DNA of 64,000 nucleotides, taken from positions 1 to 64,000 of the forward strand of contig CANRIU010000001.1 of the NCBI GenBank assembly GCA_947630755.1. The letters run 5' to 3'. This document shows, piece by piece, positions 1-12,903 of the stretch. Source of the stretch: an uncultured Oscillospiraceae bacterium. GTDB lineage: Bacteria > Bacillota > Clostridia > Oscillospirales > Oscillospiraceae. The notes below the pieces were generated by a model that made no database searches, was not told the DNA's origin, and worked only from the letters and a program-made list of their open reading frames with translations. A program made the translations under genes and the position numbers. Numbering within the stretch: the stretch's first letter is position 1; every line of letters starts with the position of its first letter.

Positions 1-82
1 TTCATGGTAGACACCCCTTACAGAGAATTTTATCATTCTCTCTTTCGACTGTCCACTCTTACTATACAACTTTCTTTGGTTC

Positions 83-116
83 TTTTCTCTCTTTTGACGG
101 GTCAAAAGAGAGAAAA
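83..116. repeat. Perfect 16-bp inverted repeat with 2-nt spacer (TTTTCTCTCTTTTGAC-GG-GTCAAAAGAGAGAAAA)
   Basis: Arms 83-98 and 101-116 read directly; lies at the left border of the hairpin array. Confidence 0.85.
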
Positions 117-128
117 CGAACATGCCCC

Positions 129-348
129 GTCCACCTCCCAAGGTGGACATATTGCTCCGCCCTTCGGGTGGGATTACTCGCCTTATTAAGGCGGCTTTCG
201 GTCCCCTCCGGGGACCTCTCGCACCGCCCTCCGGGCGGGATACCTCCCGCCTATCGGCGGTGTCCTCTGTCCACCTCCGGTGGACTCACCCCGCCTGACG
301 GCGGGCCCTCCGCCCTCCTGGCGGACTTGTCTGTCACTTCTTTAAGTG
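129..348. repeat. Array of about ten short, non-identical hairpins
   Basis: Stems read directly: 129-136/141-148, 179-184/188-193, 200-206/210-216, 224-229/233-238, 247-251/256-260, 269-275/279-285, 290-295/300-305, 309-314/320-325, 335-339/344-348, plus a GU-containing one at 156-172. Confidence 0.75.
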
Positions 349-3300
349 TCTTCCTCCGGAGCTTAAAAGCCTCCGCCGTCCACGTTTGAGGATGGCAACG
401 GCTGTGAGCCCCAGCGCGGACGCCGCAAGGAGCGCTGTCCACATTCCAAGGCGGCTGGGATCTCCGGTATCGGGCTGTACGTCGCGGGGAGGCTCCGGCG
501 CGTCCTTCCTGTTTACGAACTCCGCCAAAGCTCCGGCCCCGGCGGATATTACGCCCGACGCGCCGGGCGCCAAGGTGGTATAGCCGTCCTGTCCGGCCTC
601 AAGCTCCGTGACGATGTACCCGGTGCCCTCGGGAAGGCCCTGGGCCGTGACGCTCTCGCCGTGGCGGAGGGTGAACTCCGCCATGCCCTCCGTAAAGGTC
701 ATATCGCCGTAAGCGCCGCTTATGCTCCTGTCCCCCAGCTCCACCCGGAAGTGCCACTCCCGGTCGCTGTCGGCCCCGGTGCCCTCCACTGTCTTTGTGA
801 CGGTGAGGCTCCCGGTGAGCTTCTCCACGGGCGCGGTGTCCCGGTGGTTCACAAACTGCGCGTACACCATGCTGTTCCGGACGATGGCGCCGCTCTCGCC
901 GGAGGAGGAGGTGGCATAGCCGTTAAGCCCGGCCTCAAGCTCCGTGACGGTGTAGGTCACGCCGTCGGGGAGGCCCTCCGCCGACGCGCTCTCGCCGTGG
1001 CGGAGAGTGAACTCCGCCGCACCCTCCGTAAAGGTCATATCGCCGTAAGCGCCGCTTATGCTCCTGTCTCCCAGCTCCACCCGGAAGTGCCACAGGGCCT
1101 CGGTGTCGCCGTCGGTGCCCGTGACGGTCTTTGTAACGGTAAGCCCTCCGAGGCCCGGCTGGGGAGGCGTCCAGGGCTCGTTCCAGTGGTTCACAAAGGA
1201 CGCGACCGCCTCATTTTCCGCGGCGATGGTCCCCTGCTCCCCGGTGGATGTGGTGGTGTAGAGCCCGGTGTCCGCCTCAAGCTCTGTCACGGTGTAGCTC
1301 ACTCCCGCCGGGATCCCGGTGGCGGTTATCTCCTCGCCGTGGCGGAGGGTGAACTCAGCCACGCCGCCGTCAAAGTCCATGCCGCCGTAGTGCCCGGTGA
1401 GGGCCCTGTCGAGAGTGACCTCAAAGCTCCACTCCCGCTCCATCTCCCCGCCGGAGCCGCTGACCGTCTTCATAACCGTCAGGCTCCCGGTGGGGATGGT
1501 CCTGTCGTTGGTGAATACCGCGATGGCGGGCTGGCCGTCGACGATGACGCCCGTGCTGCCCTGGGATGTGGTGGTGTAGCCCGGGACGGCTGTCTCGGTG
1601 ACGGTGTAGGTTATGCCGGGCTCCAGCTCAAATGTCCGGCTCTCGCCGTCCTTGAGGGTGAATACTCCGGTGTTTGTGCCGTTGAAGGGCTCGAAGTCCA
1701 CGCTCTCGCTGAGGACGACCCTGAATTCAAACTCCCGGTCGTGCTCCCCGGCGTTGCCCGTGACCTTCTTTGTGACAGTGAGGCCGCCGATGCCCCGGGT
1801 GTTGATGAACGCGGCGGTGAGGACATCCCCCGGCTCCACGCTCCCGGAGGTCCCGAAGGAGGTGGTGACGTAGCCGTCGGTGTTGGCCTCCGCCTCGGTG
1901 ACGGTGTACTCCGCCCCCACGGGGAGGGTGAAGGTCCTGTGCTGACCGCCTGTCAGCGTGAAGCTCACTGAGCCGCCAGAGAAGGGAGGCGTGCTGTGCT
2001 CCGGCATGTTTGTCAGCGTCAGCGTGAAGTTGAAGGCCCTGTCCGCCTCTCCCAGGGTGCCCGACACCGTTTTGCTGACCGTGATGTGCCCGGGTACATG
2101 GTCGGGCTCCAGGTCGTTTATTATCACCGCGTCGGCAATCCCGCCGTGGGGGATGGTGCCGACGGTGTGGACGGTGCGGGTGGTGTACCCGTCCTGCCCG
2201 GCCTCCAGCTCGTGGACCACATACTCCGTCTCGGGGTCGAGGCCGAAGATGGTCATGTGCCAGCCGTGCTCAAGGTAGAATGTGGCCTCGCCGTCGGTGA
2301 AGGTTATCTTCTCCCGCTTCACCTCGCCGGAGTCCTGGAAGGACATGCAGTCGTACTCCCTCACGTCGGCTTCAAGGTCCATGGCGGCGGTCTTCCCCGT
2401 GAGGCTCACGGTGAAGTGCCAGTCCTTCTTCTTGTCGCCGATGCCTATGACGTAGGTAGAGATGGTAAGTCCGCCCTCGTCCTCATCCTCCACCGGGTGG
2501 TCAAAGCCGTCCTGGATGTTGGTGAAGTGGGCCACGGCTGTGCCCTCCGCGGGGATGGTCCCCGTCTCGCCCACGTCGTTCACGGTGTAGCCCGCCGCGG
2601 GCTCCTCGGTCACGGTGTAGCCCGTCCCCTCGGGAAGGCCGACGGCGGTTATGACCTGGTCATTTCTGAGCACAAAGTGCGCGACGCCGTTTTCAAAGGT
2701 CATGCCGCCGTACTCGCCGTTTATTGTCGTGTCGCTCAATGTGACGGTGAAGCTGAAGGGTCCGGCGGCGTCGGGGTCATCGCCGATCACCGCTTTCCTG
2801 ACGGTGAGACCGCCAAGGACCGGGGCCGTGTCGTAGTCGTTGGTGAACTCCACACCCGTTGCGGTGAAGTCCACGCCCTCCTCCTGAATGACGGGCTCCG
2901 CGGCGACAAGCTCCCCAAGCGCGGGATCGTTCGTCACCTCCACGGTGACAAAGTACACGCGGCTGTCGTAGGTCACGCCGGGGGCCCTGCCGTGGACCTC
3001 GGACACCCGGAAGGTGTATGTGCCCGGGGCGAGGAAAATGATGTCCTCCTCGGCGCCGCCCTCCGTCAGAGGCACGGTCACGCTCTCGCCCTCTTTTATC
3101 AGCCTTTCGTTGCAGACCACCTGGCCCGCCGCATCGGGGGCGTCGATGAGCTCGAAGAGCGCGGAGAAGGAGTCGTTCACGCCCCAGCTCCTGCCGTCCA
3201 GCGTCTTGCGGAGGTAAACCGCCTCCTCGGCGTAGGCGTAGTTGAGGAAGGGCAGCGTCGGACTGCCGCTCTCGTCCCTGCCGTGGGACACGCCCTCGTC

Positions 3301-6300
3301 GGAGGAGTAGGCGTAGGAGGTCACAACCTGCATCTGCCCCGTGGGGACGCCGCCGTCGGTTATGACCATGGCGTTGACCGTCAGGACCATTTCCGGCTCC
3401 TGGCAGAAGATGAACCTGTCGTGCTTCTCCGTCTCACGGACGGTGAAGGCGTAGGTTCCGGGCTCCTTTATCTCGACGGAGCCGAAGGATTTTGTTATTG
3501 CGCCGTCGACGCTCTCGCCGTCGGTCTGGCTGATCGTCACCTTGTACGCCCCGGAGGCCGTGTCGGGCGCTCCCCAGCCGTCGGGTATAACCACGGTGCC
3601 GCCGTCTATCGCCGCCTTTGTGCCGTCATCCGGGGTAATGGTGAAGCTGAAGCTCTCATCCTCCGCCCAGGGGCGGTCGCGCAGGGTCTTTTCGATGGAG
3701 AGGTCGAATTTCCCCGGCTCAAGGGTGTAGGTGTTGACGAATGTGGTCGTTGTGGCGGCGCTCTGGCTCTCCGCCGTGGTGCCGGCAAGGACATTTGTGT
3801 CCGTGGAGTCCTTTATCGTGAGGGACAGCTTCCCTGTGCTCGGGTCGTCGGCCACATGGGCGTACACGGTGTAGGTTCCGGATGTCTCGATGCCGTGCCC
3901 GGGGTCCTTCTCCGTGAGGGTGAAGGTGTAGTCCCCCGGCTTTGTGAAGGTGACGGCGCCAAGGCTCCCGGTGTGATCCGGGGACTTGTCGGTGATGCTC
4001 ACGCTCCCGGAGGAGATGACAGCGCCGGAGGCATCCCCGGAGGTGAGGGCGATGGAGAACTCAAAGCTGTCGTTCGCCGCCCAGGGCCGATTGAGGTCCT
4101 TTTTTATTTCCGGCGTCCAGACAGCGCTCTCGGGGGTGTAGACGTTTGTAAATACTATCCTCCCGTCCGCCGCTGCCGCGGGGCTTACGCTCCGGGACGC
4201 AACCAGCGCCCCGTCCGACCCCCGCTCCACGGTGAAGGTCACGGTGTAGGTCGTGCCGTCGCAGGCCACGCCGGGATTTACGGTGCTCGGCTTCTCCGTC
4301 ACGTTGAACACATACGTCCCAGCCTCATAGAAGCGGAAATCCAATGTCCAGTCCACGGGGTAGTCCGTGCCGCCGGATACGCTTAAGAAGGTGTGCTCTA
4401 TGGGCGACGCGGTGAGATATTTGTACGCTCCGTCAGCGTCGGCGTACATGACGTTGTCGAAAACGCTCCCCGCACCGGAGCCCCCGGATGTGGCGAAGGC
4501 CACGCTTACGGTGTAATTCTCCCCGGTGCGCCAATCCCGCCCCAAAATGGTCTTGCCCACTGTGAGCGAGCTTCCCGCGGCGCCCTGCTCCGGACTCGCC
4601 GCCGCCCAGTAGCGGTTTACGAAGGGGAATGCGGTGCTGTCGCCGCTCTCCTCCCCGGTGACGATGTACGCGTAGGTGGCGACAAACTCGTCCGTGCCCC
4701 CGGCCATGTCGGACTGCACCTTCACCGTGAGCTTTACTGTGGGCTGGGTGCAGGTGAGCTGCCGCGTCTCAAAGCCCTCGGTGTCCTCGGTGACGTTAAA
4801 GACGTAGGTTGCGCCGCTGCCCTCAAGGTTGCCGACGGTCATCTCGCCCATGTCCAGCGTCTTTGTGACCCAGCCGCCTGTCACGGTTTCCGGGTCCGTG
4901 CCCTTGACGGTGACGGTGTAGCTTCCGTCCGCGAGAGCCGCTCCCCACCCCTCGGGGACCTTGAGAAGGCCGGCCTTTATGGCGTCCTTCGCGGTGTCAT
5001 CCGGTTGGATAGTGAATTTAAACTCGTCCTCGTCCTCCCAGGCGCGCCCGGTGAGGAGCTTTGAGAGCCTGAAGTCAAAGCTTCCGCCCTCGTCGTATCT
5101 GTTTACAAATTCGACCGTCGTGACCGCGTTGACCGATGCATCTGACGCCGTGCCGTCCTTCCCGGTAACGGTGATGTTCATTGTCCCGTTTTTGTTGTCA
5201 ACGGCGCTCACGGTGAGCTCAATGTCGGCGGGCTTATCCTCAGAGCCAAGGCCGCTGCCCTGACCCGACTCGGATATGGTGAATTCGTACTCTCCCGGCG
5301 TGGTGAAGGTCACGGCGTCAAAGCTGACGGTCTCACCCTCCCCAACGCTTATCTTCTCGTCCCCGATGGTCACGCCCTCCGGGGCGGATGTGTTTTTCAG
5401 GGTGAACTGGAACTTCTCGCCATCCCGCCAATCGCGCCCGGTGAGCTCCTTTGTCACCGACGGCGTCCATGTGCCGGAGGTGGTGTAGACGTTTGTCACG
5501 GGGACTGTGTCGCCGGAAATGCTCACCCCGCCCCTCTCGATGGAGCGGCTTGTGACGGTGAGCTTCTCGCCGGAGCGCTCCACCTCAAATGTCACGGTGT
5601 ACACGCTTTCGTCAATGGCGACGCCGCCGTTGACGGCCGCCGGGGCGTTCTCCCTGACGGTGAACACATACGTCCCCGCCTCAAAGAAGCGAAGGTGTAT
5701 GGTGTTGGAGCCATCGGAGGTGTAGGTGAAGGTCTGGGTCACAAAGGGCGCAAATTTCCCCTCCTCCGCGCTCTCGCCAACGAAGAAGTGCGGCATATCC
5801 GTGTGCCCACCGTCGAGGGTCACGCTGACGGTGTAGCTCTCGCCGGGGAGCCACTCGCGCCCGGTGAGGGTCTTGCTCACCTTGAAGAGACTGCTGCCGT
5901 CCACGCCCTCCCCGGCGTAATAGCGGTTCACAAAGGGCAGGATCAGCTCGCCGTCCTCCGGGGCCTCGATCTTATTGTCCGGGTCCACAAGGTACGCATA
6001 TACCGCGGTGAACTCAAGGTTCCCGGTGTAGCCGCCCTCGGTGCCGACACCGCTTGTGACGGTAATGGTGAGAGCGATGGCGGGCTGGGCGCAGTAGAGG
6101 TTCTTCTCCTCAAATCCATCGGTCTTTTCGGCGATTTCGAATTTATACGTCGCGCCCTCGGTTCGGAGGTTGCCGACGGCAAGGCTCCCCAGGTCGAGCA
6201 CCCGGGTCACGTCAGGGTCTCCGCTCCCCGGAGTGGTTTTCTTAACATTGACCGTGTAGACGCCCTCGCCGTCAGGCTCGCCCCAGCTTTTGGGAACGGT

Positions 6301-9300
6301 GAGAAGTCCATCCTTAATATCCCCCAAAGCCTCAGCGTCCGGCGTGATGGTGAACGCAAAGTCGTCCTCATCGGTCCAGTCCCGCCCGGTGAGAAGCTTT
6401 GAGAGGCCAAACCCGTAGCTTCCGCTCTCGTCATAGGTGTTGACAAAGGCTATGGTGGAGGAAACAGCGCTGGAGGGCTCCTCCGGGGTGCTGCCGCCAT
6501 CCCCCGTGACCGAGAGCATGAGGTGTCCCACGTTGTCGTCCTCGGCAGTGACGGTGATTTTTATATCCCCCTTGTGCTCACCATGACCGAGACCGTCTCC
6601 CGTGCCGGACTCGGAAATCGTGAAGGTGTACACACCCGGCGCGGAGAAGGTCACGTTGCCAAAGCTCACGCCGATCGCAGCGTCGCTCTCGCCTATCTCT
6701 ATCTCGCTCTTTTCGATTATCGGCTTATAGGTGTTCCCCTCTCCGGGCCAGGAATTTGCCTCCAGCGTAAAGGTGAATTCCTCACCCTCTTTCCAGTCCC
6801 GACCGTTCAGTTCCTTTGTCACGGTGGGGGTCCAGGTCCCGGTGGCGTTGTACTCGTTTTCGAAGGTCATCTCGTGTTTTCCGGTGTGACCCTCGCGCTT
6901 GGCGATGTAGGTGAGGTTATAGTCTGAGAGGTCCTCGAAGGTGAAGTAGTTGTCTCTGCCTGCCTTTTGGTCATCGCTTGCGACGATATGTATCTCCCGC
7001 TCGCCGCTCGAATCCTTGACCATCACCTTAAAGTCGTTGGGATTTCCTTCCGCGTCTTTACCCTCCACGGTGGCCTCCCGGATGACCGGGTTGCCGTCGG
7101 AGCCTTTTTCATTGATGTAGTACCACTTTATTGTCCAGCCGCCGTCGATCACCTTTTCGTCAAACTCGGGCTTTGCCCAGGTCTCAAAGCTCGTGACAAC
7201 GTGCTGGTCCGTCTCGCAGGTGGCGACGGGGTCCTTGCCCTCGATCTCACCGGAGGCGCAGTCGTAGAGCGCGAAGTCCAGCTCGTCAATGATGCCGTCC
7301 GTCACCGCCTCGCCGGGGTCCTCGGGGTCCGCGCCCACGGCGTTCTTCAGGGTAATGAGAAGGGTGTATACCCGCTCATCGTAGGTGATGCCCTTTGTGT
7401 CCTCGGGCTTATACTCCTTTATCTCCAGAGTGTAGACAATGTCCTCCGTGCGGGAGACGACAGGGTAATAGTCAGCGGCGCTGGTGCTCTCGGGGTTTTC
7501 GACAAAGTAATTTCCCTCTGCAAGCCCGTCGATCTCACCTGTCGATTTGTGCACGACCTCATTCTTCCCGTCGGCCTTGTCGGGCACAGCGTCGCCCACA
7601 TTTTTGCCCTCGGGGAGCTTGTCTTTATCCGAAAACTCCCACTTCACGGGGAACTCCAGGTTCTGGAAATCTATCTCCTCGAAATTAAAGGTGTGCCCCT
7701 TGTCCACCTCGTCACCGGAAAACTCGCTTGCGGTTCCGGCGGGGTTTGTCACATTATTCTGGTTAAACCTTACCGCCTTGTCGGTGGCAAATTTCCCCTC
7801 ATCGTCCTTTGCGCCGTGAAGCCCGCCGATGTATATATTGCCGCTTGTGAGGGCGCTGCGGGTATACTCGTCGGCTCCAGTGATGGTGACATAGAAATGG
7901 TCCTTGATCTCGTCATTATCGAGCCAGCCGTCGTCATAGCGGCTCTCGTCCTCAGCGCCGCCACTGTTGTTCCCCACGTTTATCGGCCTGCCGTCTGTCC
8001 CCAGCCGCCCGGTGAACTCCTTGGTTATGGCGTAGCTCGTGGTCTGGACCGCGGGCTGGACGTGGTAGGTGTTTGTGAAGGTCGGGGCCACTCCGGCGTA
8101 GACGCGCCTTGCGCCGTAGTCCGCGGGGTATGCCGCGCCGTCACCTGTCGGGTCCTGATAGTAGATGTTGCGGACATCCGCCCGGAGGTAGGTGTTGTCG
8201 GTGGTCATGTCCGTGCCCTCGTTGACCCCCGGGTCGCGGTAACGGGTCACGTCCACCACAAGGGTGTAGACCCTCGGGGATTTTGAGAGTGTCCCGGCGT
8301 TGTCGCTTGTAATACTGTTCTCGGTGATGGTGAAGGTGTAGGTGCCGGCAGCCGGGAAGGGGTGGGCCTCCGCCATCTGGGCGCCCTTATCACCGACACT
8401 GTCATTTTTTGACGTGTTCAATGCGGCATCGTCCGGTTTTTGTTCCTTGGGCTCTCCGGTGGTTTCGTCAAGCGTGATTTCGCCGTTGACGATAAGCGAC
8501 ACGGACTGCATCGTGTCGGGCAGCAGCTCCTCGATCTCCTGCCCGTCAGCGAGGGTTATGATGTTCTTCGCTGGCGTGCTGGTGTAGTTTACGGTGACAT
8601 CCGGGCTGTCCCCGTTCACGTTGAAGGTCTCAATAAACTTCTTGAGCGCATCGTTGAAGGTCGTCCCGTCGCCGCCGCCTGTGACGATTTTGTATTCCTC
8701 CGCGCTTATCACCACTGCCCCGCCAAGGTTGATGCCATCAGCCCCGGAGGTGATGGAGCCTAAGTCAATAAGGCTGCCCAAGCCGGAACCGGAGGTGCTG
8801 CGGAAGGCGATGTCAAAGGAGAACGTGTCGTTTTCGTTCCACGCGCGCCCGTCTATCTGCTTGCGTATCGCCATATCCCCGTTCACCGGGATGTTGGCGA
8901 TAGCGGCCTGGACAAAGTTCTCCGTGCCGTCCTGCCCGAAGCGGAAATTCTGCCGCTGGTAGACCTCCCACTCCTCGTCGGAGGTGCTGCCCTGCTCTTT
9001 TTTATAGTCCACGCAGCCCGCCGGGTGGACAAGGTACAGCGCGTCCATGATGCGGTAGCCCGTGGGGGCGAAGGTCTCGCGAAGGACGTAGTGCTGCGCG
9101 GGGTCAAGCCCCGCGAAGGCGACCTTGCCGTTTGCGCGGGTGGAGGAGCTCGCCACCTGGAGCGCCTCAAGCTCCGCCATGCCCTCCGCGCCCCTGTTAA
9201 TAAGCTCCTGGATTGTATCAATTTTGTCCGCCTTATATACGCGGAAGGTCGCGCCCTGGAGGTAGTTGTTGTCCTCCCGCGCCCCGGTGTATTTGAGTAT

Positions 9301-12300
9301 CTCCACCACGCCCGGGTCGTCGGCGTTGGTGATGTTTATGGTTATCTCCGCGGTGCCGGGGTTGCGGTCCAGCACGGCGTGGAAGGGCGCGGAGGTGGTC
9401 TCCGTCCAGCCGTCCAGCCCCGCAAGGTCCATCCAGTCGCTGACACTGTCGTGGTTCGTGTCCTCAAGGTCCCTCTGGTCGATTTCGCCGTCACCGTTTG
9501 TGTCGGTCAAGGTCATAAACCTGCTGTCGCCCACGAAGCTCGTGTATGTCCCGTTGGCGGGGTCGTAGCCGAAGGAGTGCTTGTAGATGCTCGCGCTTCC
9601 TCCGCTTTCGAGGATATAGTACTCCGCGGCCACATACCAGTCCTTGACCTCCGCGCCGTCCATGGTGGAGGACAGGAGCTCATATGTGTACTCCTGATTT
9701 TCAATTTTCGCCAGCGCCAGCTCCTCGTAGACGTGGGACACGCCGGAGCTGTCCACATAGCAGACCTCGAAGATGGTGGTGGCGGGTATGGGGGTATCCG
9801 CCTTTGCGGAGTAGGTCTTTTTGAGGGTGAGGTTGGTGTACAGAGAGTAGTTGTACCCCACATCCACAGCCGTGACGGTGTGGTCCGTCTCGGAGGGCTT
9901 AACTCCGCTCTCCCCCACCGTGATTATCTGAACCTCAGTACCCTTCCCGGCACTGTCGTAGGCGTAAAGGGCATAAGAGCCGTTTTGACCGCCCTGAACA
10001 TCGGAAGCCGCATTTGAAAGCGGCTTTGGCGTGGTATTTCCGGATGTGAGGGTGTAGCTCGTGTCGGGGCGCACTACCTCGTATACAAACGAATCTCCAT
10101 CCTCATATGGAATGTTGGTGAAGAAGTACCTGCCGGAGACAGGGGTGACATCGGATTTGACCAGCTCGTAATATGCGGTGGAGCCGTCAAAGGTGCCTCC
10201 TGAATATGTACTTACAACCTTATGTGTATCACCGCTCTTGTCGCTGGGATTTACCTTGCCTCTGACGTCCGAAACGGTGTAATATGTCTTCCCGCTCTTG
10301 GGGGATGGATCCTTTGTCTTTCTGTACAGGTTCAGAGTGACACCGGACAGGAGCGTATCTCCATCCGCCATGGAGTCATAATCTCCGCTCTTGTCGTTAT
10401 CGAAAAAGACCTGCCCTGTCAGGTTAAAGGCCGTGCCGGATATGATTTGGATCGTCTCGTGTTCTTCAACGAGCTTTGCAGGCTCCGCAGGGATAAATGT
10501 CCAGAAGTCCTGAATACCATAGTCATAAGTATTTACTCCGCCCTTGGCGATACCCACTGGGTACATGGAGCTGTCGAGATACTTGATTATGTCCGTTTGA
10601 CCTCCGTCTCCATCCAGGAAGTTTCCGTCTTTATCGTAATATTCAATCGTATTGGTGACATGGCTGTGGTCGCCGATGCGTATGAAGTGGTCGTCGCTGG
10701 AGGTTTTCGATGTCACTCCACCCACATAGTCACTGACGGCACTGCGGACCTTATATTCTCCTCCATCTGACGTAATATCATTGTACTCATAGTAACTGCC
10801 GCCCGCGCCGTCGTCCTTGACTTTGGTGGTTTTGTTTTTATTCCATATGGTGTTGTCCTTGTTTGTCTCATTTGCCTCTCTGACAGTGTCCTCCTTAAGT
10901 CCGGTGCGGCCCACATTCTCACCGTAATAGATGGCGGAGCTGTCGTAGTAAATCACGTTCTTTGTGGCGTCAAGGATATTGTCTTTCCCATCGAGCCTCT
11001 CGCCCTCGCGGCTGTATATTGGGCTCACGCGGGTGAAGGTAAATCCGGCGGCGGACGCCTCCACATCATGGACAGGGAAATGTATCTCGCCCGCCTTGGT
11101 GGTGAGGGTGAGGATGTCCTTGATGTTGTATGTCCCCGCGGGAATCACATTTCCTTTTCCGTCTTTGCCGTCCCAGTAGAAGTAGTTTGTGGAGTAAGGC
11201 TTTACGGGGCCGGAGATCGTCACAGGTATCAGGTGCTTTCCGTCATGTAATACGGGCTCGCCCTTTTCATCCTTCAGCTCCTCAAAGTTCAGAACCAGGG
11301 TGGCTGTGGTGGCCTCCCTCGTCTCAAAGGCGAAGTAACCGCCCACGCCCTCATAGGCGCCCGGGACAACCTCTCCATCGTCAAGCGTTATTTTGTCAAC
11401 GAAGCGGATGTTCTCCGCAGGGTCCGGCTGGATGGCGCGGGTATACAGGTGCCCCTCCAGGTCGGGGTTCGGCATCTCGAAGAAGATATAGTAGCTCTTT
11501 GCCTGATCAGTATTAAAGCTTCCGGGGTATTTGAAGCTTGCCCCAAATTGTGTATAGTCAAACCGAGTGTTTCTAACCTCTTTTACGGACTTATAGAGGG
11601 TACTCCCGGTGGCATTGTCGGTGAGGCCCTTGTTGTCAGCAAAGAAATTGTATGTGTTAGGAGTGCTTCCCCTCCAGTCCCAGCGGTATATGTAGCTGTC
11701 GGTTGTGACGATATAATAAGTCTCAATTACATTGTATCCTCCGTTCTGTTGGAGTGACAGGTAGTCCGCGTACACACGCCCGGTCTCCTTGTGTCCCTGC
11801 TCGTTGAATACGCTGACATCCCATGCGGCGACTACTCCGCCGTGCTCAGCATCATTGGGCTCCCTATACTTACCGTTGTCACTCGTCCCTGCGGGCCAGT
11901 CGGTATCGTCCGCTCTCTTTGAATAGGACTGCGGACGATAAAAGTTATCCGCCACATTATTTCTTTCATTTTTATTGTTGGTATTTGCATCTACCGTGTC
12001 GTTCTTTGTTGTCTGTCCGTCGTTGCCGCCGTTGTCGTAGGAGTGAAACTCAATGGTGTACACTCCCGTCTCCGTCACCTTGTATGTGAGAGGTGTATAG
12101 GAGTAGTCCTTGCCGTTGACATCATTTTTGCTGTTTCCGGTGGGGCTCTCCATCGTCTTTGCAAGGACCTCGGTTTGAACGTCAGGGATATGCCCCGCGC
12201 CGTCCTTTTTCACATCGTAGAGTATGCGGTTGCCGCGAAGGTCCGTGAGCACAATATCGACCGTCGCCCCCTCGCCGAGGCGCTTTTGAATGTCAGCTCT

Positions 12301-12720
12301 TTCAGTGTCATTCGCCGCACGGTCTCCGACTGTATTGAGGGTGGAGTTCCACACATCGGAGCCGAAGCATATGGTATCTCCCTCAAAGGCGTAGACATGG
12401 ATATAGTTCATATATTGAACTCCTCCAAAGCTGCCTTTCTGCCAGTAGAGATAATTTCGGGAGCTGGTTCCAAAGTTGACATTGGTCCTTCCGTCAGGCG
12501 TCGTACCGCTGGAGCTCCATTTAAGGTTCGTCATATCAAACTTTTGGGCATACTCCGCCTTACGCTCCTCGACCTCCTCCTCATAGCTGTCCGCGGACCT
12601 CGCCTCGGGCAGAGTGAAGTTCACAAGGCCCAGCGCCATGACAAACGCCAGCAGCCCCGCAAGGACCCTCTGTCCCCCGGGCGCCGCCGAATGATTCCTG
12701 TGCTCCCTTTTTGCTCTCAT
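334..12720 (-). CDS. Giant (~4128 aa) cell-wall anchored repeat surface protein: signal peptide, SdrD-B/SpaA-like domains, ~11 Spy0128/FctA-like pilin domains, ~7 DUF5979/DUF7601-like repeats, sortase-type C-terminus (QPDTGD + TM + KRGRRR)
   Basis: Long ORF; start taken at MRAKREHR (ATG 12718-12720) with AGGAGGG SD immediately upstream rather than the ORF-track start at 12864; repeated '(V/L)xKxLxGRxWxxxxxFxF' and 'GxLTVxKTVxGxxG...YTVTExxA..GYxTxxxGxxGxI' motifs; C-term VQPDTGDPSRLGMWTALLAASALGLTAVAILKRGRRR. Confidence 0.9.
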   Translation of the reverse strand: MRAKREHRNHSAAPGGQRVLAGLLAFVMALGLVNFTLPEARSADSYEEEVEERKAEYAQKFDMTNLKWSSSGTTPDGRTNVNFGTSSRNYLYWQKGSFGGVQYMNYIHVYAFEGDTICFGSDVWNSTLNTVGDRAANDTERADIQKRLGEGATVDIVLTDLRGNRILYDVKKDGAGHIPDVQTEVLAKTMESPTGNSKNDVNGKDYSYTPLTYKVTETGVYTIEFHSYDNGGNDGQTTKNDTVDANTNNKNERNNVADNFYRPQSYSKRADDTDWPAGTSDNGKYREPNDAEHGGVVAAWDVSVFNEQGHKETGRVYADYLSLQQNGGYNVIETYYIVTTDSYIYRWDWRGSTPNTYNFFADNKGLTDNATGSTLYKSVKEVRNTRFDYTQFGASFKYPGSFNTDQAKSYYIFFEMPNPDLEGHLYTRAIQPDPAENIRFVDKITLDDGEVVPGAYEGVGGYFAFETREATTATLVLNFEELKDEKGEPVLHDGKHLIPVTISGPVKPYSTNYFYWDGKDGKGNVIPAGTYNIKDILTLTTKAGEIHFPVHDVEASAAGFTFTRVSPIYSREGERLDGKDNILDATKNVIYYDSSAIYYGENVGRTGLKEDTVREANETNKDNTIWNKNKTTKVKDDGAGGSYYEYNDITSDGGEYKVRSAVSDYVGGVTSKTSSDDHFIRIGDHSHVTNTIEYYDKDGNFLDGDGGQTDIIKYLDSSMYPVGIAKGGVNTYDYGIQDFWTFIPAEPAKLVEEHETIQIISGTAFNLTGQVFFDNDKSGDYDSMADGDTLLSGVTLNLYRKTKDPSPKSGKTYYTVSDVRGKVNPSDKSGDTHKVVSTYSGGTFDGSTAYYELVKSDVTPVSGRYFFTNIPYEDGDSFVYEVVRPDTSYTLTSGNTTPKPLSNAASDVQGGQNGSYALYAYDSAGKGTEVQIITVGESGVKPSETDHTVTAVDVGYNYSLYTNLTLKKTYSAKADTPIPATTIFEVCYVDSSGVSHVYEELALAKIENQEYTYELLSSTMDGAEVKDWYVAAEYYILESGGSASIYKHSFGYDPANGTYTSFVGDSRFMTLTDTNGDGEIDQRDLEDTNHDSVSDWMDLAGLDGWTETTSAPFHAVLDRNPGTAEITINITNADDPGVVEILKYTGAREDNNYLQGATFRVYKADKIDTIQELINRGAEGMAELEALQVASSSTRANGKVAFAGLDPAQHYVLRETFAPTGYRIMDALYLVHPAGCVDYKKEQGSTSDEEWEVYQRQNFRFGQDGTENFVQAAIANIPVNGDMAIRKQIDGRAWNENDTFSFDIAFRSTSGSGLGSLIDLGSITSGADGINLGGAVVISAEEYKIVTGGGDGTTFNDALKKFIETFNVNGDSPDVTVNYTSTPAKNIITLADGQEIEELLPDTMQSVSLIVNGEITLDETTGEPKEQKPDDAALNTSKNDSVGDKGAQMAEAHPFPAAGTYTFTITENSITSDNAGTLSKSPRVYTLVVDVTRYRDPGVNEGTDMTTDNTYLRADVRNIYYQDPTGDGAAYPADYGARRVYAGVAPTFTNTYHVQPAVQTTSYAITKEFTGRLGTDGRPINVGNNSGGAEDESRYDDGWLDNDEIKDHFYVTITGADEYTRSALTSGNIYIGGLHGAKDDEGKFATDKAVRFNQNNVTNPAGTASEFSGDEVDKGHTFNFEEIDFQNLEFPVKWEFSDKDKLPEGKNVGDAVPDKADGKNEVVHKSTGEIDGLAEGNYFVENPESTSAADYYPVVSRTEDIVYTLEIKEYKPEDTKGITYDERVYTLLITLKNAVGADPEDPGEAVTDGIIDELDFALYDCASGEIEGKDPVATCETDQHVVTSFETWAKPEFDEKVIDGGWTIKWYYINEKGSDGNPVIREATVEGKDAEGNPNDFKVMVKDSSGEREIHIVASDDQKAGRDNYFTFEDLSDYNLTYIAKREGHTGKHEMTFENEYNATGTWTPTVTKELNGRDWKEGEEFTFTLEANSWPGEGNTYKPIIEKSEIEIGESDAAIGVSFGNVTFSAPGVYTFTISESGTGDGLGHGEHKGDIKITVTAEDDNVGHLMLSVTGDGGSTPEEPSSAVSSTIAFVNTYDESGSYGFGLSKLLTGRDWTDEDDFAFTITPDAEALGDIKDGLLTVPKSWGEPDGEGVYTVNVKKTTPGSGDPDVTRVLDLGSLAVGNLRTEGATYKFEIAEKTDGFEEKNLYCAQPAIALTITVTSGVGTEGGYTGNLEFTAVYAYLVDPDNKIEAPEDGELILPFVNRYYAGEGVDGSSLFKVSKTLTGREWLPGESYTVSVTLDGGHTDMPHFFVGESAEEGKFAPFVTQTFTYTSDGSNTIHLRFFEAGTYVFTVRENAPAAVNGGVAIDESVYTVTFEVERSGEKLTVTSRSIERGGVSISGDTVPVTNVYTTSGTWTPSVTKELTGRDWRDGEKFQFTLKNTSAPEGVTIGDEKISVGEGETVSFDAVTFTTPGEYEFTISESGQGSGLGSEDKPADIELTVSAVDNKNGTMNITVTGKDGTASDASVNAVTTVEFVNRYDEGGSFDFRLSKLLTGRAWEDEDEFKFTIQPDDTAKDAIKAGLLKVPEGWGAALADGSYTVTVKGTDPETVTGGWVTKTLDMGEMTVGNLEGSGATYVFNVTEDTEGFETRQLTCTQPTVKLTVKVQSDMAGGTDEFVATYAYIVTGEESGDSTAFPFVNRYWAAASPEQGAAGSSLTVGKTILGRDWRTGENYTVSVAFATSGGSGAGSVFDNVMYADADGAYKYLTASPIEHTFLSVSGGTDYPVDWTLDFRFYEAGTYVFNVTEKPSTVNPGVACDGTTYTVTFTVERGSDGALVASRSVSPAAAADGRIVFTNVYTPESAVWTPEIKKDLNRPWAANDSFEFSIALTSGDASGAVISSGSVSITDKSPDHTGSLGAVTFTKPGDYTFTLTEKDPGHGIETSGTYTVYAHVADDPSTGKLSLTIKDSTDTNVLAGTTAESQSAATTTTFVNTYTLEPGKFDLSIEKTLRDRPWAEDESFSFTITPDDGTKAAIDGGTVVIPDGWGAPDTASGAYKVTISQTDGESVDGAITKSFGSVEIKEPGTYAFTVRETEKHDRFIFCQEPEMVLTVNAMVITDGGVPTGQMQVVTSYAYSSDEGVSHGRDESGSPTLPFLNYAYAEEAVYLRKTLDGRSWGVNDSFSALFELIDAPDAAGQVVCNERLIKEGESVTVPLTEGGAEEDIIFLAPGTYTFRVSEVHGRAPGVTYDSRVYFVTVEVTNDPALGELVAAEPVIQEEGVDFTATGVEFTNDYDTAPVLGGLTVRKAVIGDDPDAAGPFSFTVTLSDTTINGEYGGMTFENGVAHFVLRNDQVITAVGLPEGTGYTVTEEPAAGYTVNDVGETGTIPAEGTAVAHFTNIQDGFDHPVEDEDEGGLTISTYVIGIGDKKKDWHFTVSLTGKTAAMDLEADVREYDCMSFQDSGEVKREKITFTDGEATFYLEHGWHMTIFGLDPETEYVVHELEAGQDGYTTRTVHTVGTIPHGGIADAVIINDLEPDHVPGHITVSKTVSGTLGEADRAFNFTLTLTNMPEHSTPPFSGGSVSFTLTGGQHRTFTLPVGAEYTVTEAEANTDGYVTTSFGTSGSVEPGDVLTAAFINTRGIGGLTVTKKVTGNAGEHDREFEFRVVLSESVDFEPFNGTNTGVFTLKDGESRTFELEPGITYTVTETAVPGYTTTSQGSTGVIVDGQPAIAVFTNDRTIPTGSLTVMKTVSGSGGEMEREWSFEVTLDRALTGHYGGMDFDGGVAEFTLRHGEEITATGIPAGVSYTVTELEADTGLYTTTSTGEQGTIAAENEAVASFVNHWNEPWTPPQPGLGGLTVTKTVTGTDGDTEALWHFRVELGDRSISGAYGDMTFTEGAAEFTLRHGESASAEGLPDGVTYTVTELEAGLNGYATSSSGESGAIVRNSMVYAQFVNHRDTAPVEKLTGSLTVTKTVEGTGADSDREWHFRVELGDRSISGAYGDMTFTEGMAEFTLRHGESVTAQGLPEGTGYIVTELEAGQDGYTTLAPGASGVISAGAGALAEFVNRKDAPEPPRDVQPDTGDPSRLGMWTALLAASALGLTAVAILKRGRRRLLSSGGRHLKK
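686..1093 (-). repeat. Recent intragenic duplication: 72-bp blocks 686-757 and 1022-1093 (period 336 bp = 112 aa) with one mismatch
   Basis: CCCTCCGTAAAGGTCATATCGCCGTAAGCGCCGCTTATGCTCCTGTC(C/T)CCCAGCTCCACCCGGAAGTGCCAC present at both. Confidence 0.9.
2840..6860 (-). repeat. Three ~1.35-kb super-repeats, each of three pilin-like domains (A-B-C x3)
   Basis: Protein order: TWTPTVTKELNGRDW / FGLSKLLTGRDW / LFKVSKTLTGREW; TWTPSVTKELTGRDW / FRLSKLLTGRAW / SLTVGKTILGRDW; VWTPEIKKDLNRPW / DLSIEKTLRDRPW / AVYLRKTLDGRSW. Boundaries approximate. Confidence 0.75.
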
Positions 12721-12903
12721 ATCTGTCCCTCCTGGAGATGATAATAAAGTGATAAAGGCGCAGCCCTCCGTCCCCTCCGGGGAGCGGAGCGCGTGACAGG
12801 CCGCTTTCACGGCCCGTATATAGATATACAGATACATTTTATCATATCTATTTTCTGAATTCAAGACGGTATTTCAATAAATTAGCAGAATAAAATAAAA
12901 AAT

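Follow-up and report, generated by a model that had tools for sequence, protein, structure and literature searches.

Intrastrand triplex motifs (ITM/PIT), in which one strand provides both a hairpin and a third strand, are abundant in bacteria; they are multi-copy and intergenic, and their copy number varies widely among relatives (Holder et al. 2015, PMC4666352). Small hairpin clusters between genes, near 3′ ends, are known as bacterial interspersed mosaic elements (BIMEs), which share a conserved repetitive extragenic palindromic (REP) sequence linked to REP-associated tyrosine transposases (RAYTs). Miniature inverted-repeat transposable elements (MITEs) and the palindromic repeats Correia, ERIC, and BOX are non-coding, dispersed, bounded by terminal inverted repeats, and present or absent according to the species. 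In the telomerase RNA pseudoknot and the expression and nuclear retention element (ENE), a linker pairs with a loop and the pyrimidine strand L1 occupies the major groove of stem S2, parallel to its purine strand. Here, we analyzed a stretch of 64,000 nucleotides (hereafter, the window; positions 1–64,000 of contig CANRIU010000001.1, assembly GCA_947630755.1) from an uncultured Oscillospiraceae bacterium. The original prediction, made from the letters alone, described at its beginning a 16-bp inverted repeat followed by an array of small hairpins. We propose, with moderate confidence, that window positions 79–350 belong to a dispersed, non-coding repeat that encodes a structure, and form the right-hand end of one of its copies, which is truncated.

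The source genome is a 2.19-Mb draft of a gut Oscillospiraceae in 98 contigs. Searching it with window positions 60–400 returned 90 matches, of which about 27 correspond to heads (the 83–116 hairpin of the window), many at contig ends. On contigs C17, C75, and C26, two inverted heads lie about 700 bp apart. Arrays extend outward from both, and the core between them is shared and occurs in either orientation. From its outer edge, an intact copy consists of the hairpin array, hairpin H3, a third strand, a linker, hairpin H2, CCTTTTAAAAACGA, hairpin H1, and the core, followed by the inverted repeat of the same components. The core, about 700 bp long, is non-coding. In relatives, the conserved unit is a module of about 150 nt composed of H1, TCGTTTTTAAAAGG, H2 with the loop AAAATCGAAAT, a linker of 3–6 nt, a pyrimidine tract (A1), and H3, formed by arms A2 and B. 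An interior box, AGCGGC(TA)AGCG, was found on the core side of 28 of the 68 Oscillospiraceae modules and on the outer side of one.

The predicted fold of these modules is supported by covariation. For H2 and H3, 94.7% of the cells are paired, 18 pairs are altered on both sides, and 145 cells have changed on both sides against 47 in shuffles; none of 500 shuffles reached the observed support. The linker is complementary to the H3 loop and covaries with it (TTG:CAA, CCG:CGG, TCG:CGA, TTC:GAA, TTT:AAA, and CTT:AAG). This helix has a mean length of 4.34 bp, compared with 3.54 bp with swapped partners (maximum of 1,000: 3.89). The tract A1 mirrors A2 and hence matches the purine arm B in parallel (T.A, C.G), as in the pair formed by B AAAAGAGAGGAAAG and A1 TTTTCTCTCCTTTG. 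A pyrimidine-motif third strand must run parallel to the purine strand. Among 47 distinct arm pairs, the match was 0.952 in the parallel and 0.852 in the antiparallel orientation, and 0.809 with swapped partners (0 of 500 as high as observed); 29 arm types favor the parallel and three the antiparallel orientation. As one of our search patterns contained TTTCTC, which could favor mirrored tracts, we repeated the test on modules with a good tract that had been retrieved with BLAST, the covariance model, or the neighboring typA gene alone: 20 were parallel, none antiparallel, and 29 symmetric. Most modules of relatives and the intact copies of this genome have 11–12 parallel matches; the window copy is degenerate. 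Each end is thus predicted to adopt a knotted triple-helix fold.

This design recalls the telomerase RNA pseudoknot and the ENE, as the counterparts of S1 pairing and of an L1 parallel to the S2 purine strand are both indicated by covariation; the likeness is in fold pattern only, is drawn from sequence, and does not imply an RNA state. However, this is a bacterial dispersed repeat with a longer third strand (∼13 triples) and no related gene. Compared with intrastrand triplex motifs, three segments of the same strand are compatible, at the sequence level, with a Hoogsteen triplex of at least six triplets. Neither the loops of 1–6 nt nor the TM_ECO consensus CCCTCNCCC..GGGNGAGGG is found: the segments are T/C-rich and the H3 loop is often longer. 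TM_ECO, which Holder et al. (2015, PMC4666352) describe in detail, is a purine motif rich in G and C and lacks this pseudoknot and element context, whereas the present repeat combines a pyrimidine motif, a pseudoknot, an H2 with a fixed loop, two inverted ends, an interior box, and outer hairpin arrays. The kinds of elements involved (intrastrand-triplex repeats, REP/BIME/MITE) are known, but this combination is absent from Rfam and from the literature that we searched, and is apparently undescribed.

In the window copy, the 16-bp inverted repeat (arms 83–98 and 101–116) is the conserved part of the element, a predicted triplex/pseudoknot hairpin. The head hairpin H3 spans positions 79–121 of the plus strand (GTTCTTTTCTCTCTTTTGA-CGGG-TCAAAAGAGAGAAAAcGAAC) and is matched at 72–120 by covariance model R1 (35.7 bits, E = 7e-7). 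At positions 73–79 (plus strand), the third-strand pyrimidine tract survives in degenerate form as TCTTTGG, in place of TTTTCTCTCTTTTGG in the intact copies L021, L023, and L024. The window opens with the first base of contig C1, and sequence 1–74, which has no second occurrence in the genome, occupies the place of the core, H1, and H2 of an intact copy. This copy therefore lacks the core, H1, H2, and most of A1, and retains H3 and the array. The contig-end sequence, at 1–76 (GGTAGACACCCC..., TGTCCACTCTTAC), is possibly the end of an inserted element.

Ten hairpins, with stems of 5–8 bp and loops of 3–5 nt, follow the head at positions 129–350, their starts spaced by 19–28 nt. The first unit, GTCCACC-TCCCAA-GGTGGAC (129–148), is nearly invariant. 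It is followed by CCGCCC-TTC-GGGTGG (157–171), a hairpin with the core CGCCTT-ATT-AAGGCG (178–194), GGTCCCC-TCC-GGGGACC (200–216), CCGCCC-TCC-GGGCGG (224–238), CCGCC-TATC-GGCGG (247–260), GTCCACC-TCC-GGTGGAC (269–285), CCCGCC-TGAC-GGCGGG (290–305), TCCGCC-CTCCT-GGCGGA (309–325), and a last hairpin with the core CACTT-CTTT-AAGTG (333–350). The same scan found a mean of 2.05 hairpins and at most five in 300 dinucleotide shuffles of positions 117–350, and a mean of 2.2 and at most seven in 268 tiles of equal size from the rest of the window. RNA folding of positions 60–400 gave z-scores of −10.0 (plus strand) and −7.2 (minus strand). The array announced by the original prediction is thus real. 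Its hairpins, rather than one long competing structure, dominate the fold, and such arrays are abundant in the genome and shorter in relatives. It was also correct that a terminator does not explain the array, as C/T-rich spacers devoid of U-runs join the ten hairpins and the GC hairpin followed by a U-run of intrinsic terminators is not found, and that no named family accommodates it: the element has no match in Rfam at the gathering threshold. The stems do differ, as stated, although they are drawn from a small recurring set common to other copies (GTCCACC, CCGCCC, GGTCCCC, CGCC, and CCGTCT). What had been overlooked is the dispersed element itself: the variable-stem array forms its outer flank only, and 83–116 is its conserved part.

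Across the 24 readable heads of this genome, the number of outward hairpins ranges from 2 to 18 (mean 8.3), compared with 0 to 7 (mean 2.3) outer hairpins in 75 modules of relatives. The long array therefore reflects an expansion, at the level of the species, of an outer hairpin region that is otherwise short. Beyond the near-invariant first unit, arrays are composed of few stem types in a semi-regular order. Array-like matches with no adjoining head occur at G000:C8:8330-8682 (L031). At L197 (∼660–1270) and at L143 (∼3250–3450), near rpsT, elements enclose genes, a cargo in an otherwise non-coding element; that of L197 comprises a small protein, MEGLYRKLYFKLFGILADTIELLEAG..., beside a helix-turn-helix-like reading.

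As had been noted, the array extends into the gene of a giant surface protein. This open reading frame (334–12864, minus strand; 4,176 aa from a TTG, or 4,128 aa, the earlier count, from a downstream ATG) ends at 334 within the last hairpin, which overlaps its stop codon. The C-terminus reads QPDTGD...KRGRRR-LLSSGGRHLKK, the part after KRGRRR lying at the array edge; QPDTGD and KRGRRR (window 301–430) are as in sortase-anchored proteins, and the 11-residue tail is odd. At L021 (2940–2980), a 2-hydroxyacid dehydrogenase-like gene also ends within an array. Arrays appear to supply C-terminal codons to more than one gene.

Among 245 genomes of the order, 35, representing 20 of 126 genera, contain modules detected by the covariance model; some matches are weak, and L167 and L173 are probably due to chance. 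Up to 15 modules were listed per genome, often as inverted pairs 265–700 bp apart. The named carriers are mostly uncultured Oscillospiraceae from rabbit and ruminant guts, together with Oscillibacter. A reduced form, linker X - T4-6GG - TTACT4-6 - X′ - A4-6GTAAC or a T/C-mixed version, is intergenic on replicons of Diaphorobacter, Variovorax, Caballeronia, Pasteurella, Ilyobacter, Aureibacter, Parabacteroides, and L. reuteri, with 19 places on one Caballeronia replicon. Such reduced forms, which share the pseudoknot and the tract, span Pseudomonadota, Fusobacteriota, Bacteroidota, and Bacilli. In 16 reduced modules, the cross-phylum linker:loop helix averages 4.69 bp against 3.13 bp with swapped partners (maximum of 2,000: 4.19), a comparison that includes some wrongly oriented hairpins. 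Inverted pairs flank an AGCG-AGCG box in Ilyobacter (L183 and L273) and AGCGAAGC in Pasteurella (L270). Judging from these sequences, the forms of different phyla seem alike in design, which makes no claim of a single ancestor. One may tentatively envisage, although we would not yet bet on it, a pan-bacterial mobile or regulatory class set by conserved shape rather than by sequence, with two inverted triple-helix pseudoknots around AGCG-box cores, folded single strands recognized by a protein, and species-specific hairpin arrays. A viral or phage origin was rejected: the head and the module have no match in IMG/VR or phage records, which contain only reduced GTTAC-type hairpins. An Aureibacter plasmid carries a module (L184, 1494–1533) within a type I-D CRISPR operon, between cas7d and cas5d. 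Upstream of a Variovorax module (L267), we noted a TM_ECO-like purine triplex sequence, CCCTCTCCCTCTGGGAGAGGGCTGGGGTGAGGG, and repeated GAGCGAAGCGA boxes; purine-type and pyrimidine-type triplex sequences stand there side by side.

The site upstream of typA is occupied by the element in this genome, in G033, and in several congeners. In G005, G020, G013, G016, and G024, it is empty and the same two genes are about 100–150 bp apart. Elsewhere, a locus may carry the element across several species or genera. Copies are therefore gained and lost, yet able to persist. Like MITEs, the element is non-coding and dispersed, with terminal inverted repeats and empty sites; unlike them, its ends are conserved in structure and not in sequence. 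No clean target-site duplication and no parental transposase were found. We consider it most likely to be a non-autonomous repeat, mobile or amplifying, that acts through single-stranded DNA and is tolerated between genes, often near a gene 3′ end. When a strand becomes single during replication, repair, transfer, or transcription, each end would fold into the pseudoknot and the pyrimidine-motif triple helix, and this folded shape, rather than the sequence, would be what is maintained or recognized. The outer hairpins may spread by slippage or template switching, and copying within a hairpin could hold the arms complementary while stems drift.

The loops of the arrays bear on the choice between DNA and RNA. 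They are of the TN(N)C type in 125 of 191 hairpins, against 9 of 347 in the background, and read GNA or GNNA on the opposite strand. Such loops were reported to form extraordinarily stable DNA mini-hairpins (PMC4686876), which favors DNA. On balance, we lean toward a dispersed structure-encoding repeat, likely non-autonomous, that works as single-stranded DNA. Several observations weigh against this. TTC and TCC array loops can also be read, on the head-to-array strand, as UNCG RNA tetraloops. Counts of G-U versus A-C wobbles (30 to 21; the count on arrays, biased by the hairpin finder, was not used) single out neither a strand nor RNA versus DNA, and standard energy models, with loop energies by strand, prefer neither strand. 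C+.G-C triples require protonation. No transposase was seen for the element, and the presence of Y1_Tnp does not follow copy number: G005, G006, and G025 have 25–31 BLAST matches and no Y1 hit, and G022 has two Y1 hits and no element match. Mobilization by RAYT/Y1 transposases was rejected on this ground. No clean target-site duplication was seen, the flanks of the typA locus having diverged. Some copies occupy orthologous places in several species and genera; mobility is therefore not rapid, and some sites may be kept.

The strongest alternative, which we nevertheless consider unlikely, places the function in RNA: read-through transcripts with a telomerase-like or ENE-like triple-helix pseudoknot and stable 3′ hairpins would block 3′–5′ exonucleases or end transcription, on either strand thanks to the inverted ends. 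Outer neighbor genes do face the element with their 3′ end (48:25), at a median of 91 nt from the stop codon, a bias that fits either a tolerated insertion or a 3′-end role, and 80 of the array loops are compatible with C(UUCG)G or C(UCCG)G. However, wobble pairs show no strand bias, many copies lie upstream of genes such as typA, an outer gene encounters the module antisense first, the loops TGAC, TTTC, and TGTC are not UNCG, and no Rfam family corresponds. More doubtful still is a mutational by-product, in which template switching at forks makes and corrects palindromes and arm copying sustains a structure devoid of function or recognition. Array units are indeed patchworks of a few stem types whose arms are almost perfect, and arrays differ strongly between species, but arm copying accounts neither for the third strand, a mirror that is neither copy nor complement of its partners, nor for the linker:loop pairing and the conserved unpaired boxes. 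A BIME/REP-like element docking gyrase, HU, or IHF, or acting as a bidirectional terminator, is highly improbable: the hairpins cluster between genes as in BIMEs and the TTTTTAAAA tract is conserved, but the stems are variable, the arrays have no U-run terminators, and neither a conserved REP palindrome with GTAG nor a correlation with RAYT (Y1_Tnp) was found. Two weak Rfam matches, ylbH (32 bits for a gathering threshold of 50) and Phe_leader, were rejected. Chance, CRISPR, integron attC, and type III antitoxin arrays, considered without a formal test, find no support in repeats, conserved attC boxes, or linked genes.

Mirror, parallel covariation of a triple helix is seldom seen in natural sequence; here, dozens of distinct arms from across bacteria display it, and a pseudoknot accompanies it. 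Should this be confirmed, these elements would represent a large natural experiment on triplexes in vivo and would account for a class of intergenic repeats that break assemblies. They would also raise the question of what recognizes a folded single strand by its shape.
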